In this document: positions 12,694 through 39,742 of the stretch, piece by piece | Position numbering within the stretch: position 1 is the stretch's first letter | Layout of the letters: each line of letters starts with the position of its first letter | DNA from: Exiguobacterium sp. | Lineage (GTDB): Bacteria > Bacillota > Bacilli > Exiguobacteriales > Exiguobacteriaceae | Direction of reading: 5' to 3' | Length of the DNA: 40,993 bases | Assembly (NCBI RefSeq): GCF_020832205.1 | Contig: NZ_JAFIFD010000029.1 | Span: 1-40,993, forward strand | The notes under the pieces: generated by a model | What the model was told of the DNA's origin: nothing | Databases searched by the model: none | Seen by the model: the letters and a program-made list of their open reading frames with translations, nothing else | Made by a program: the position numbers and the translations under genes

Positions 12694-12756
12694 GAATAAG
12701 TTCCTCCCTGTTGTGTGAATCTGAAGTTGTTGAGATTTTATAATGTCTTGTTTTGA

Positions 12757-12784
12757 ATTATACAAAGATTCTGACAATTAGCAA
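12757..12784 (-). promoter_or_regulatory. SigA promoter of the AgcS symporter
   Basis: On the minus strand TTGCTA (12784-12779), 16 nt, TATAAT (12762-12757). The predicted start of transcription leaves a leader of about 55 nt. Confidence 0.6.
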
Positions 12785-12853
12785 TAATTTTTTTATAGGT
12801 TGGTTCACAGAAAGTTCACATAAAATTCGACATAAATCCCGAAAAACCGACAC

Positions 12854-12867
12854 TTAAAGCGCTTACA
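12854..12867. promoter_or_regulatory. cre-like CcpA site
   Basis: TTAAAGCGCTTACA differs at one position from the CcpA consensus TGWAANCGNTNWCA. It lies about 70 bp upstream of the symporter promoter and about 240 bp upstream of the riboswitch leader; which unit it serves is unclear. A weaker relative, GTGAACCGCTTACA, is at 13051-13064. Confidence 0.45.
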
Positions 12868-12994
12868 AAAGTTTTTAAAAGAAATAAAAAATCATCAATT
12901 GCTTACATAAAGTTGACTATCCGTTACAGTTTTTTTGTCATTTCAGACTTTTTCTTCATTATATATACTATCTACATATATAAGTAGTAATAAA

Positions 12995-13019
12995 TACCTA
13001 TAAAATAATAATATAGGTA
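12995..13019. repeat. Perfect inverted repeat upstream of the riboswitch leader
   Basis: TACCTATA (12995-13002) and TATAGGTA (13012-13019) are perfect 8-bp arms around 9 nt of AT. The right arm lies where a -35 box would be for the -10-like TATACT at 13038-13043; no proper -35 is present. This would suit an activator or repressor site for the leader transcript. Confidence 0.4.
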
Positions 13020-13092
13020 AATACAACCATTTTGACTTATACTGAATATAGTGAACCGCTTACAGCGAGTCATGATTGAGCGCATGCTTTTT

Positions 13093-13166
13093 GGGTAATG
13101 CGATGAAGCCTTCTCTGTATCTGGACACTTGGGGAAGGTGGAGCGAGTAGTGTAACCGGACCCCCT
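13093..13166 (+). ncRNA. c-di-GMP-II riboswitch aptamer, first of two
   Basis: The order of conserved parts matches class II c-di-GMP riboswitches: GCGATGAAG (13100-13108), stem P2 (CCTTC 13109-13113 with GAAGG 13134-13138), loop TGGACACTT (13122-13130), then GAGCGAGTAGTGTAACCG (13141-13158). ACACT (13125-13129) can form the family pseudoknot with AGTGT (13149-13153). P1 would pair GGGT (13093-13096) with ACCC (13160-13163). P2 covaries fully with the second copy. An alternative hairpin, CCCCT (13162-13166) with AGGGG (13173-13177), competes with P1 and uses bases needed by the second aptamer. Confidence 0.85.
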
Positions 13167-13171
13167 AATAG

Positions 13172-13246
13172 AAGGGGCGCGATGAAGTATAGACTCGTAT
13201 ATGGACACTTGAGCTATACGGAGCGAGTAGTGTAACCGACCCTCTT
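13172..13246 (+). ncRNA. c-di-GMP-II riboswitch aptamer, second of two
   Basis: A second copy in tandem: GCGATGAAG (13179-13187), P2 (TATAG 13188-13192 with CTATA 13214-13218, plus CTC/GAG), loop TGGACACTT (13202-13210), then GAGCGAGTAGTGTAACCGACC (13221-13241) with the pseudoknot ACACT 13205-13209 and AGTGT 13229-13233. P1 would use AGGG (13173-13176) with CCCT (13240-13243 region). The ending AACCGACC is the class II hallmark. Its 3' P1 strand overlaps the strand that can mask the ribosome binding site of the downstream gene. Confidence 0.88.
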
Positions 13247-13262
13247 AATCTACTTTAAGAGG
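13241..13262 (+). promoter_or_regulatory. Shine-Dalgarno-masking hairpin (expression platform)
   Basis: CCTCTTAA (13241-13248) pairs perfectly with TTAAGAGG (13255-13262) across a 6-nt loop. The right arm contains most of the AAGAGGAG ribosome binding site, 9-10 nt before ATG 13274. The left arm shares bases with the 3' P1 strand of the second aptamer, so ligand-stabilised P1 would free the ribosome binding site. No T run follows, so control is probably at translation. Confidence 0.7.
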
Positions 13263-13273
13263 AGACTAAAACC

Positions 13274-13960
13274 ATGAAAAAACAAGTTGGTATGACCATG
13301 TTGGCAGCATCACTATTATTTGTCGGAGCGGCTGACGCATCAGCAGCGACGAACGGCAAAACGGCGAGTAAGTTCGAATCACTCGCAGACGGCCGTCAAA
13401 CGAACGGGATTGGCACAGGCGTCATCGAAGGGCTCGCCTTCTCAGGCACGGAACTCGTCGAAGGCGATGCCCTCACGATTTCGGTCGATGGCGTCGTCAT
13501 CGATGGACCACTCGATACATTGAAATGGTCAATCACGGATCAATCTGGACAAGCTTATGACTTTGGCGACCATGTCCTTGCTCCTGGCACGTATACGTTC
13601 ACAGTTCAAGCAAGCACATACTTCAAAAATGGTCAGAAAGCCGGTCTCGTCCATAGCACAACTGCACCACAGACCGTCTCGGTCACAGTCGTTGAAAAAC
13701 CTGAGGCGGTCGCCGTCACAGTCGTTTCGGCTGAAGTAGTAGCTTACAACTATACCGTCGCCAAAACGAATGCTCATGGCGCCATTCTCGGCTATCACTT
13801 GGAAGCGACCGTCGCATTCAAGTTGAGCAATGGCGAAACGCTTTACGATACACGTCACTTCAATAACGTCCAACCGTCACAGTCACTCGGTTTCTCAGTG
13901 ATCTACGGCGAAGAGACGTTCGTGACGTCATTCGCACCACCTGCTTACCCAGCAAAGTAA
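13274..13960 (+). CDS. Secreted protein of unknown function under c-di-GMP riboswitch control
   Basis: A 228-residue exported protein. A signal peptide is clear: MKKQ, a hydrophobic core (MTMLAASLLFVGA) and a cleavage site near ADASA-A (about residue 25). There is no LPXTG, lipobox or membrane anchor, so it should be released or bound non-covalently. The mature part is low in cysteine (none seen) and looks beta-rich with Ig-like alternation: TKWSITDQSGQAYDFGDHVLAPGTYTFTVQA-type strands in the middle and a second unit from about 145 (AVTVVSAEVVAYNYTVAKTNAHG). I recognise no named domain. Placement behind two c-di-GMP-II aptamers suggests a role in surface or biofilm behaviour; that is inference. 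Confidence 0.8.
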   Translation: MKKQVGMTMLAASLLFVGAADASAATNGKTASKFESLADGRQTNGIGTGVIEGLAFSGTELVEGDALTISVDGVVIDGPLDTLKWSITDQSGQAYDFGDHVLAPGTYTFTVQASTYFKNGQKAGLVHSTTAPQTVSVTVVEKPEAVAVTVVSAEVVAYNYTVAKTNAHGAILGYHLEATVAFKLSNGETLYDTRHFNNVQPSQSLGFSVIYGEETFVTSFAPPAYPAK

Positions 13961-13971
13961 ACGATTCACTT

Positions 13972-14006
13972 TCCCTAGTGCGCGCTCAAGCTAGGGATTT
14001 TTTTTT
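13972..14006 (+). terminator. Terminator of the riboswitch-controlled gene
   Basis: TCCCTAG (13972-13978) pairs with CTAGGGA (13991-13997); nine T residues follow. It separates this transcript from the next secreted-protein gene. Confidence 0.9.
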
Positions 14007-14071
14007 GATTTTTAGGACAATTTTCCCATATCTCTGAATGAATTCCGACTAACCGGGTAATGAATTACTAT

Positions 14072-14083
14072 AGGTGCGCACCT
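14072..14083. promoter_or_regulatory. 12-bp perfect palindrome before the GFWKN protein gene
   Basis: AGGTGCGCACCT is a perfect palindrome 45 nt before the start codon. The only -10-like sequence nearby is TACTAT (14067-14072), so the palindrome would lie at the transcription start, a usual operator position. No regulator family is recognised. Confidence 0.4.
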
Positions 14084-14128
14084 TCTCTAACACCACGTTC
14101 AGTCATCACGAAGAAAGAAGGGAATGAG

Positions 14129-15100
14129 ATGAAGAAGCATCGCAAATGGTGGTCACTGCTGTTCGTGCTCATGTTCGTGCTGTCGCTGTTGCCAATGAAA
14201 GGAGTAGTCGCGGAAGAAAGTAGCCAACAATGGTGTGTCTCGACGACGTCGGATAAAACGATCTATGCGGGACAAGACATCCCCATCGGTACGGTCGACT
14301 TTGAGTTTGTCGCAAACGGGCTGAAAATCGTGATTGATTTGAATGACGAGGTCGTGCTGAAAGACGCCGCTGAAAACATCAAGATTGATTTCCGTTTATT
14401 GACCGAATCGCTTGAACGGGGAAGCCCAGGGGCATACGACTTTAAAACGTACTCGAACGTCGATCCGACACACTTGCTGATTCCGTATGCGGATCTCGCC
14501 TTCTACCTCGGAGTGCCTGTATCGACGCTCTTGTCGGACGGATTCCAATTCAACGTCTTCCTTCACTTGGACACATTGGTGAATGGCGCTGACGAAACCG
14601 CCTATCCAGGCGATCCAGGTACCGGAAATCCTTGGGTCCGCTACGTCAAGTTGACGGTGGAAGAATGCACACCACCGCCACCGATGGACGATTATGACGT
14701 CTATACGCTCGGGTTCTGGAAAAACATCTTCAACTTCGACAAAGTGACGTTCTCGTACGGCACGGTCATCAACATTGGAGGAACAGATTACAGTGTGATT
14801 CATGATCGCGAGGCACTCGCCCTTCTCATGGATCCTGCGAAAAAAGGAATGACAGAAGAGAAACGGTTGATCATGCAGTTGACGGCTGCGAAAATCAACG
14901 TCCTCTTGAACGACGCTGACTTCAAAAACCTTGAGCTCGTCTATAGAGACAGCGGGGTCGAGGTCGGTTTGACAGTCGGTGAGATGATTGCCGGTGCTGA
15001 CGCGGCACTTGCGAGCCAGAACATCGACCAAATGAAGTATTATCAACAACTGCTCGACGACTTCAATAACGGGCTTTTCATCGGTACGTCGCATGACTGA
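14129..15100 (+). CDS. Secreted protein with C-terminal GFWKN-motif domain
   Basis: A 323-residue exported protein. The signal peptide has a KKHRK basic start, a long hydrophobic core and probable cleavage at VVA-EE (about residue 29). Residues 30-180 form a mainly beta region with two cysteines (QQWCVS and VEECTP). A proline hinge TPPPPMDDYD follows, then YTLGFWKN (192-199), like the TxGYWKN motif seen in scattered bacterial and archaeal surface proteins, and a helical end (LIMQLTAAKINVLLND). No cell-wall anchor is seen. Function unknown. The start was placed at ATG 14129, with GAAGGGAATGAG before it; an in-frame start at 14060 precedes the palindrome and would spoil the signal peptide. Confidence 0.75.
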   Translation: MKKHRKWWSLLFVLMFVLSLLPMKGVVAEESSQQWCVSTTSDKTIYAGQDIPIGTVDFEFVANGLKIVIDLNDEVVLKDAAENIKIDFRLLTESLERGSPGAYDFKTYSNVDPTHLLIPYADLAFYLGVPVSTLLSDGFQFNVFLHLDTLVNGADETAYPGDPGTGNPWVRYVKLTVEECTPPPPMDDYDVYTLGFWKNIFNFDKVTFSYGTVINIGGTDYSVIHDREALALLMDPAKKGMTEEKRLIMQLTAAKINVLLNDADFKNLELVYRDSGVEVGLTVGEMIAGADAALASQNIDQMKYYQQLLDDFNNGLFIGTSHD

Positions 15101-37684: not shown

Positions 37685-39742
37685 ATGCACGCTGACCAGA
37701 CGATTTATAACCACTATGCCGCCTTGCTCCGGACGTTTGATAAAATTTCAGATTATGTGTTCTTCATGGAAGTCGACGGTCCGACATACCGGTACGCCTT
37801 CGTCAACGAGCCCGGGCAGCGCGCCATCGGTTGGAAAGAAGATGACCTCGGGAAAAGCATTGAGGACTTGGTCCCGCCCGAGACGGCACTGTTGATTAGG
37901 CGACATTACGACGAAGCGATCCGTGAACGAAAGAGTGTCGTCTTCGAGGACTATCGTCTCGCCGATTCGTTCTTTACAGATACGCTGGAATCGACAGACG
38001 TCCTCTCGTTGCCGCTCCACTACTTCGAGTCGGAAGTGACGCCCGTCTTTGACGGGGAGACGTGCACCCATGTTATTTCTGTCGTCCGAGAAGTGACGGA
38101 ACGAAAACGCCGAGAGCTCGAATTGACGATTTTGCGGGATCAACACGAATCACTTCGACGGTACTCTCCGCACGGAATTTTCGTCCTCGACCACCATTTT
38201 CGGATCAAGTCGCTCAACCCGGCCGTGACGACCATTACCGGTTACACGGAAGCCGATTTGATTGACCATTCATTCATTGACTGGGTCGACCCGTCCGAGC
38301 GAGAGACGGTTCAAGCCGGGCTCGAGCACGCCATGGCGGGGGCACCGCACAAATATACAATCCAGGGACAGCGGAAGTCGGGCGCCTCACTCGACCTGGC
38401 AATCTTGAATATCCCGATCGAGGTCGGTGGTCACATCAATGGGCTGTTCGCCATCATCATCGACCACACGCCCGAGAAAGACGCGGAACGAGCGACACAA
38501 GAGAGTGAGCGACGTTACCGTCAATTGATCGAGACGATTCCTGAAGGGATCATCGTCCATCGGGAAGGAGAAATCGTGTACGCCAATACGTTAGCGCTTG
38601 AGACGATCGGTGAAACCACGATCACGGGCATGTCCGTCTTCACGTTCGTCGCACCGGAGTATCGCGAAGCGGCTGCCGCTCGACTCGCCTCGATGCGCCC
38701 TGATGATGCGGTACAAGAAATGGAACTTGTCGTCATGTCACGCGCTGGCCGACGTTTCCATATGGACGTGGCCAGTCTCGTCATTGACTATGAAGGGACA
38801 GCTGCCATCTTGACCGTCCTTCGCGATGTCACGGAGAAACGGGACATTGAACGGGCACTCCGTCAAAGCGAGATGCGCTACCGATTAATCACCGAGAACA
38901 TGAGCGACCTCGTCTGCATGCTCGAGGCGGACGGAACGGTCCGGTATGCGAGCCCGTCTCACCTCCACGTGCTCGGCTATCCCCCGTCGTTCTATGAAGG
39001 GAAGAATACGCTTGACTTCATTCATCCACGCGACGTCGAACTGGCGCGCCTGCAGCTCCACGCGTCGGCGCACGGAAGCGAACCGCTCACACTCGAATTT
39101 CGTCACGCCCACGACGACGGTCGCTGGATTTGGCTTGAAACGAAAATCCAAGCCATCTATCACGAGGATGGCAAGTTGCTGCATTATTTGACGGTCACTC
39201 GAGAGATCATGCAGCGGAAAGTCGTCGAAAAGCAGTTACGCCACTTGGCTTACCACGATACGTTGACGGACTTGCCGAACCGACGCTATTTTCTCGCCTA
39301 TCTCGAGGAGTCACTCACACGGATCGAAGACGAGACGGAAGCGCTCGCCATTCTTTCGCTCGACCTCGACCGTTTCAAACAAATCAATGATACACTCGGC
39401 CATGACGTCGGCGATGAACTGTTGCGTCAATTCGCGTCTCGCCTAAAGACCGCCCTCCGCAAACAGGACGTCGTCGCGCGGTTCGGGGGTGACGAATTCA
39501 CCGTGTTGATTCGCTATAACGATCCGGTCGCACCGCACCGGGTCGCTGAAAAGTTACTGGCTGCTCTCAAACTGCCTTGGCATATCGAAAATCATACGTT
39601 CGTGACGACGTCGAGCATCGGGGTCGCCTGTTGCAAAACCGGGCTTACACCGAAGCAGTTATTAAAACAAGCCGATCTCGCCTTGTACGAGGCCAAGTCG
39701 AACGGCCGAAACCGTTATGCGTTGTTCCAAGACCGCCAATGA
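37685..39742 (+). CDS. Diguanylate cyclase with four PAS domains and a GGDEF domain
   Basis: A 685-residue soluble sensor enzyme, no membrane helices. Four PAS repeats run from about 15 to 520 (IRRHYDEAIRERKSVVFED in the first; SPHGIFVLDHHFRIKSLNPAV in the second; IPEGIIVHREGEIVYANTLAL in the third; MSDLVCMLEADGTVRYASPSH in the fourth), each with PAC-like ends such as VVREVTERKR and VLRDVTEKRD. The GGDEF domain follows (about 525-682): HDTLTDLPNRRYF, LDLDRFKQIND and the intact active site GGDEF at 601-605. The feedback I-site RKQD is at 592-595. It makes c-di-GMP from GTP, with product inhibition expected. There is no EAL domain. ATG 37685 was chosen: GAGGA lies 6-7 nt upstream. Confidence 0.92.
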   Translation: MHADQTIYNHYAALLRTFDKISDYVFFMEVDGPTYRYAFVNEPGQRAIGWKEDDLGKSIEDLVPPETALLIRRHYDEAIRERKSVVFEDYRLADSFFTDTLESTDVLSLPLHYFESEVTPVFDGETCTHVISVVREVTERKRRELELTILRDQHESLRRYSPHGIFVLDHHFRIKSLNPAVTTITGYTEADLIDHSFIDWVDPSERETVQAGLEHAMAGAPHKYTIQGQRKSGASLDLAILNIPIEVGGHINGLFAIIIDHTPEKDAERATQESERRYRQLIETIPEGIIVHREGEIVYANTLALETIGETTITGMSVFTFVAPEYREAAAARLASMRPDDAVQEMELVVMSRAGRRFHMDVASLVIDYEGTAAILTVLRDVTEKRDIERALRQSEMRYRLITENMSDLVCMLEADGTVRYASPSHLHVLGYPPSFYEGKNTLDFIHPRDVELARLQLHASAHGSEPLTLEFRHAHDDGRWIWLETKIQAIYHEDGKLLHYLTVTREIMQRKVVEKQLRHLAYHDTLTDLPNRRYFLAYLEESLTRIEDETEALAILSLDLDRFKQINDTLGHDVGDELLRQFASRLKTALRKQDVVARFGGDEFTVLIRYNDPVAPHRVAEKLLAALKLPWHIENHTFVTTSSIGVACCKTGLTPKQLLKQADLALYEAKSNGRNRYALFQDRQ

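Follow-up and report, generated by a model that had tools for sequence, protein, structure and literature searches.

Why should one leader carry two complete aptamers for the same second messenger when a single ribosome binding site lies downstream of them? The question is raised by a stretch of 40,993 nucleotides from Exiguobacterium sp. (contig NZ_JAFIFD010000029.1, positions 1-40,993, called the window hereafter), in which two class II c-di-GMP (c-di-GMP-II) riboswitch aptamers precede an open frame whose ATG stands at 13274. All leader features given below are on the forward strand. The genome encodes 23 GGDEF domains, one of them within the window, and therefore c-di-GMP is very likely made in the host cell.

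Two overlapping class II aptamers

The original prediction had placed two class II aptamers back to back with a period of about 80 nt and had proposed the Rfam c-di-GMP-II model as one check. Both copies match RF01786 above its gathering cut-off of 53.5 bits, aptamer 1 at 13087-13171 with 62.9 bits and aptamer 2 at 13166-13250 with 66.5 bits, each over model positions 1-84; the two matches overlap by 6 nt and the period is 80 nt. By the covariance model both are c-di-GMP-II aptamers, which presumably bind c-di-GMP. Their P2 helices are, as had been claimed, unlike in sequence and nonetheless paired, GCCUUCUC/GGGAAGGU in aptamer 1 (13108-13115/13132-13139) versus GUAUAG/CUAUAC in aptamer 2 (13187-13192/13214-13219). 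Read by eye, both copies carry ACAC/GUGU where the Rfam consensus has GCAC/GUGC, so that both sides are changed in what we take to be the pseudoknot.

Standard cmscan output can conceal one copy of such a pair. The output for the window lists aptamer 2 and omits aptamer 1, because overlapping matches of one clan compete, and one copy is likewise hidden at loci L005 (genome G004), L228 (doublet G407a) and L229 (doublet G407b), while both are listed for G398, G732 and G812. Annotation pipelines or surveys that drop overlapping matches can hide such doublets; in the sections of PMC9481103 consulted, some candidates with overlapping coordinates were discarded as false positives.

A chain of mutually exclusive helices

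Both P1 helices that had been claimed do pair, with two reservations. P1 of aptamer 1, P1(1), has only 4 bp, GGGU (13093-13096) with ACCC (13160-13163), enforced and checked in constrained folding; P1 of aptamer 2, P1(2), joins 13169-13176 to 13240-13247 in both the RF01786 match and constrained folding, with one A.C mismatch. The predicted helix between the 3' P1 strand of aptamer 1 and the 5' P1 strand of aptamer 2 also exists, in the corrected form CCCCU/AGGGG. This linker hairpin, H1, has its left arm at 13162-13166 (isolated linker fold, centroid of the whole leader) and its right arm at 13173-13177 (isolated linker fold, constrained folding). It has 13162-13163, the last two bases of the P1(1) 3' strand, in common with P1(1), and 13173-13176, the inner 5' strand of P1(2), in common with P1(2). 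The pairing of the aptamer 2 3' P1 strand with the Shine-Dalgarno (SD) region was confirmed as a second hairpin, H2, between CCUCUUAA (13241-13248) and UUAAGAGG (13255-13262), whose right arm overlaps the SD sequence GAGGAG read at 13259-13264. The strand at 13240-13247 is both the 3' strand of P1(2) and the anti-SD strand, as the isolated tail fold and constrained folding indicate, and H2 and P1(2) compete for it. When folded in isolation against 300 mononucleotide shuffles, the linker gave p=0.033 and the tail p=0.003; for the unconstrained whole leader the centroid holds both H1 and H2, and the total energy does not stand out (z 0.13). Neighbouring helices in the chain P1(1)-H1-P1(2)-H2 have bases in common and are mutually exclusive; aptamers, helices and mutual exclusion are computed results, as is the recurrence in other genomes described below.

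The leader holds two aptamers and a single SD-bearing expression platform, placed after aptamer 2. The SD-sequestering hairpin leads us to predict a translational ON switch, and the original prediction to this effect is supported in its two aptamers, its P1/anti-P1 interlock and the sequestering hairpin itself. We consider it probable that the two aptamers are chained through their common P1 strands into one such switch. With no ligand, the 3' P1 strand of aptamer 1 would be held in H1, which would occupy bases needed for P1(2), and the 3' P1 strand of aptamer 2 would pair with the SD, the OFF state. Binding of c-di-GMP at aptamer 1 would stabilise P1(1), break H1 and free the 5' P1 strand of aptamer 2; binding at aptamer 2 would then stabilise P1(2), withdraw the anti-SD strand and expose the SD, the ON state. 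Positive cooperativity, possibly near AND, would be the expected outcome. In this scheme ligand binding, switching direction and cooperativity are what we infer.

It might be argued that aptamer 2 alone controls the SD, with aptamer 1 left as an auxiliary or decaying copy that stabilises the leader or the mRNA. The shorter P1 (4 bp) and slightly lower score of aptamer 1 point that way; nevertheless, this copy scores above the cut-off with an intact core, and in the second genome that carries the pair, G004, the P2 change is consistent with pairing, T to C at 13114 turning a U-G pair into C-G. We regard such a division of labour as highly improbable.

Tight doublets in other genomes

The pair is present in 2 of the 19 genomes of the genus (2 of 38 in the family), and the downstream protein was found in the same two; the leader of the second carrier, G004 (contamination 8), is almost identical to that of the window. 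At class level 88 of 398 genomes have a match and seven have a close pair, all of them tight. More tight pairs occur in G398 (one), G407 (two, G407a and G407b), G732 and G812, and loose pairs in G476 (spacing 45 nt) and G814 (119 nt). Among the matches listed from a pattern scan of genome contigs most were chance, with two motif copies only in L042 among the loci examined; 35 stretches of viral contigs match the pattern, none with two motif copies, and similar DNA was not found in plasmids and phages.

The loose pairs bear on the reading that c-di-GMP-II doublets are two independent serial switches, called "pseudo-cooperative", in which H1 would be no more than the alternative pairing that P1 strands usually have. 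G476 and G814 fit it, with a terminator-like stem and T run seen by eye after each aptamer, and the consulted sections of PMC9481103 place c-di-GMP-II doublets in this category. For the window we judge it unlikely. A platform for each aptamer, by which the pseudo-cooperative type is recognised, was not found there: aptamer 1 lacks an output of its own, no terminator-like site appeared in a scan of 12700-14150 and no T run follows H1, and the right arm of H1 is itself a P1 strand of aptamer 2. On the same two observations, the empty scan and the missing T run, H1 was rejected as a candidate terminator.

For comparison of the linkers, a motif search of the collected loci yielded, with the window counted, 32 distinct tight doublets, G004 being merged with the window; L192 and L257 were added by hand to the 32 doublets, and the collection is a part of all matches. 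We divided them into six window-like doublets (window, G398, G407a, G407b, G732 and G812; the five other than the window are given the working label "clostridial-type") and a second group of 27 others, with L191 set aside; alignments A2 and A3, in which the H1 arms are out of register, were left out of the counts. The original prediction had named relatives without the pairing as the observation that would speak against it. One linker, L191, is such a case, because its 14 nt are too short for H1, whereas an H1-like hairpin is present in 31 of 32 (p<=0.05 versus mononucleotide shuffles in 30 of 32) and an H2 counterpart, a tail hairpin with its 3' arm on the purine-rich SD, in all 32 (p<=0.05 in 13). 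Interlocked pairs resembling that of the window thus occur in bacteria unrelated to it.

When the arms of H1 were swapped among the 25 distinct linkers of the second group, own arms paired at -11.79 and swapped arms at -8.48 kcal/mol, a difference reached in 0 of 20000 permutations; for 12 cluster representatives it was reached in 0 of 100000. Permutation of this kind leaves relatedness in. By this comparison of sequences the H1 arms evidently co-evolve in the second group, the largest. The same test on the window-like six was not significant (p=0.10). For H2 the outcome was the reverse, with own arms at -9.58 versus swapped arms at -9.65 kcal/mol in the second group (21 distinct, p=0.70) and p=0.03 in the window-like six. 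In 31 of 31 doublets, L191 set aside, H1 is a stronger pairing for the aptamer 1 3' P1 strand than P1(1), and H2 is stronger than P1(2) in 6 of 6 and in 20 of 25 doublets.

These figures also allow us to weigh whether the complementarity of H1 is a by-product of tandem duplication, where a 3' strand fits the next 5' strand because both P1 helices are alike. The five clostridial-type doublets do have nearly equal 3' P1 strands, and the swap test was not significant there (p=0.10 for the six). Duplication, however, predicts about equal strength of H1 and P1(1), which disagrees with the 31 doublets just mentioned; the H1 stems that reach past the P1 strands in several doublets (L190, L257, L259, L260 and L264) and the co-evolving arms of the larger group argue against it too. 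We take this explanation as already weakened and quite improbable, somewhat more so than independent switches.

Returning to the common-strand relay, its reach should be stated with care. The g23 genomes have a degenerate second copy, and inspection by eye shows H1 sharing only about 2 nt with P1(2) there, so that these doublets support H1 and not the whole relay; we therefore confine the complete chain to the window-like six and, as judged by eye, L190, L192 and L193. Copy 2 of g23, its core motifs lost, may be a "ghost" aptamer. Whether we are dealing with a recurrent same-ligand "domino" riboswitch of several bacterial families, in which the output strand of one aptamer is the structural strand of the next and occupancy propagates in order before translation, is a question on which we find ourselves evenly divided. 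If true, two copies of one aptamer could turn one second messenger into a response that is steep or AND-like, and strand competition alone would suffice for it, without tertiary contact between aptamers, a design simple to test and to copy. Tandem c-di-GMP-II arrangements would then comprise more than one mechanism, the tight ones being relays and the wide ones independent switches.

Other arrangements were noticed in the same loci. In those read among L190-L194 and L239-L265 the aptamers, single or in doublets, belong to a variant type, GGUCGCUU..GUAGCGAA; after them comes a very short reading frame, some 25 codons long and hydrophobic at its start, and then a terminator-like stem. All five clostridial-type doublets have one or two class I aptamers (RF01051 or RF03167) upstream on the same strand (L228 2296-2382; L229 2057-2141 and 2182-2268; L233 4272-4359 and 4395-4482; L231 2036-2117; L268 2861-2942); the nearest ends some 140-300 nt upstream of the class II doublet, and by eye a T run follows each. 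Two unrelated classes of c-di-GMP aptamer may therefore stand in one leader in these doublets, a combination absent from the tables of PMC9481103 as far as these were available.

Predicted coupling, known tandem riboswitches and gene context

How strongly would the two aptamers be coupled? In a constrained model, where P2 is enforced and the cores are kept single-stranded while pseudoknot, ligand, Mg2+ and transcription kinetics are ignored, forming aptamer 2 of the window costs 9.9 kcal/mol, and 4.0 after aptamer 1 has formed; the coupling of 5.9 kcal/mol falls to 0.1 when H1 pairs are disallowed. An automatic version, tried on eight doublets of which L193 was unparsable and dropped, gave a coupling of 1.1-5.6 kcal/mol in seven of seven and of -0.2 to 0.3 without H1. 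In an earlier model with fewer constraints the window, its P1(2) in the wrong register, reached only 0.3 kcal/mol, and three other doublets 2.0-4.4.

The modelled opening of the SD is more varied. With neither aptamer, aptamer 1, aptamer 2 or both formed, the probability of SD unpairing is 0.30/0.33/0.33/0.96 in G732 and 0.31/0.31/0.03/0.67 in G812, both AND-like; in G398 most of the opening is already reached with aptamer 2 by itself (0.19/0.19/0.62/0.82), and the effect is weak in G407b (0.39/0.34/0.39/0.49), G407a (0.40/0.40/0.40/0.44) and L190 (0.02/0.02/0.19/0.18). For the window the values are 0.30/0.30/0.42/0.44. A cooperative or AND-type switch accordingly stays a prediction for the window, whose model combines a positive coupling with a weak rise in SD unpairing (0.30 to 0.44) and in slope (1.03 to 1.38; 1.15 versus 1.09 with a longer P1(2)). 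Positive coupling is, in these models, general across the doublets, and AND-like output is clear in two of them and not clearly present in the window.

In the tandem glycine riboswitch, coupling takes place between aptamers in the folded state, unlike the competition for one strand that we propose for the window. Both have one ligand, two like aptamers and one platform, and the cooperativity of the glycine riboswitch would have its counterpart in the one predicted here (PMC9481103, in part). According to the same partial source, guanine/PRPP aptamers likewise stand as two adjacent aptamers on one platform, binding at one affecting the other as we predict for the window, and differ by their two ligands, a transcription terminator and OFF/ON IMPLY logic. 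The triple-tandem riboswitch Bc3-5 also puts several c-di-GMP aptamers in one leader and is ON, the direction predicted here, but its aptamers belong to class I, and every one has a transcription terminator of its own (PMC4759541, excerpts). The nearest precedent lies in the 59 doublets and nine triplets of c-di-GMP-II that PMC9481103 predicts to be pseudo-cooperative and independent; these too are tandems of class II aptamers, and most of them precede the gene of a surface anchor protein. The sections consulted describe no common P1 strand, and the window matches overlap like the candidates dropped there. PMC12452182, in its consulted part, reports c-di-GMP riboswitches as enriched in tandem and expects independent action. 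Tandem c-di-GMP-II doublets are already known, then, and, measured against the consulted parts of both surveys, the proposed common-strand relay would be new and would fit the label of neither. No c-di-GMP-II relay with a common P1 was found in the open-access literature searched, although one may have been published elsewhere.

The gene behind the window leader (13274-13960, forward strand) encodes a protein of 228 aa that, judged by eye, begins like a signal peptide and for which there was no Pfam or NCBIfam match over cut-off and no fold match at E<=0.001, the model being of low confidence (mean pLDDT 61.7, one sequence). Among the targets of the other window-like doublets, that of G407b has an LPXTG anchor over cut-off, those of G398 and G732 an LPxTG-like end (by eye), and in G812 the open frame is long and its beginning signal-like; no frame reaching 150 aa is listed for G407a. 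In the window, a stem and T run seen by eye at about 13976-14005, absent from the terminator scan, separate the 228-aa gene from the next (14129-15100), whose product also begins in a signal-like way and matches nothing in Pfam or NCBIfam. Upstream lies a divergent gene of the sodium:alanine symporter family (PF01235, 11221-12777), and the GGDEF domain of the window, at 39248-39715, scores 170.6 bits within a 697-codon open frame.
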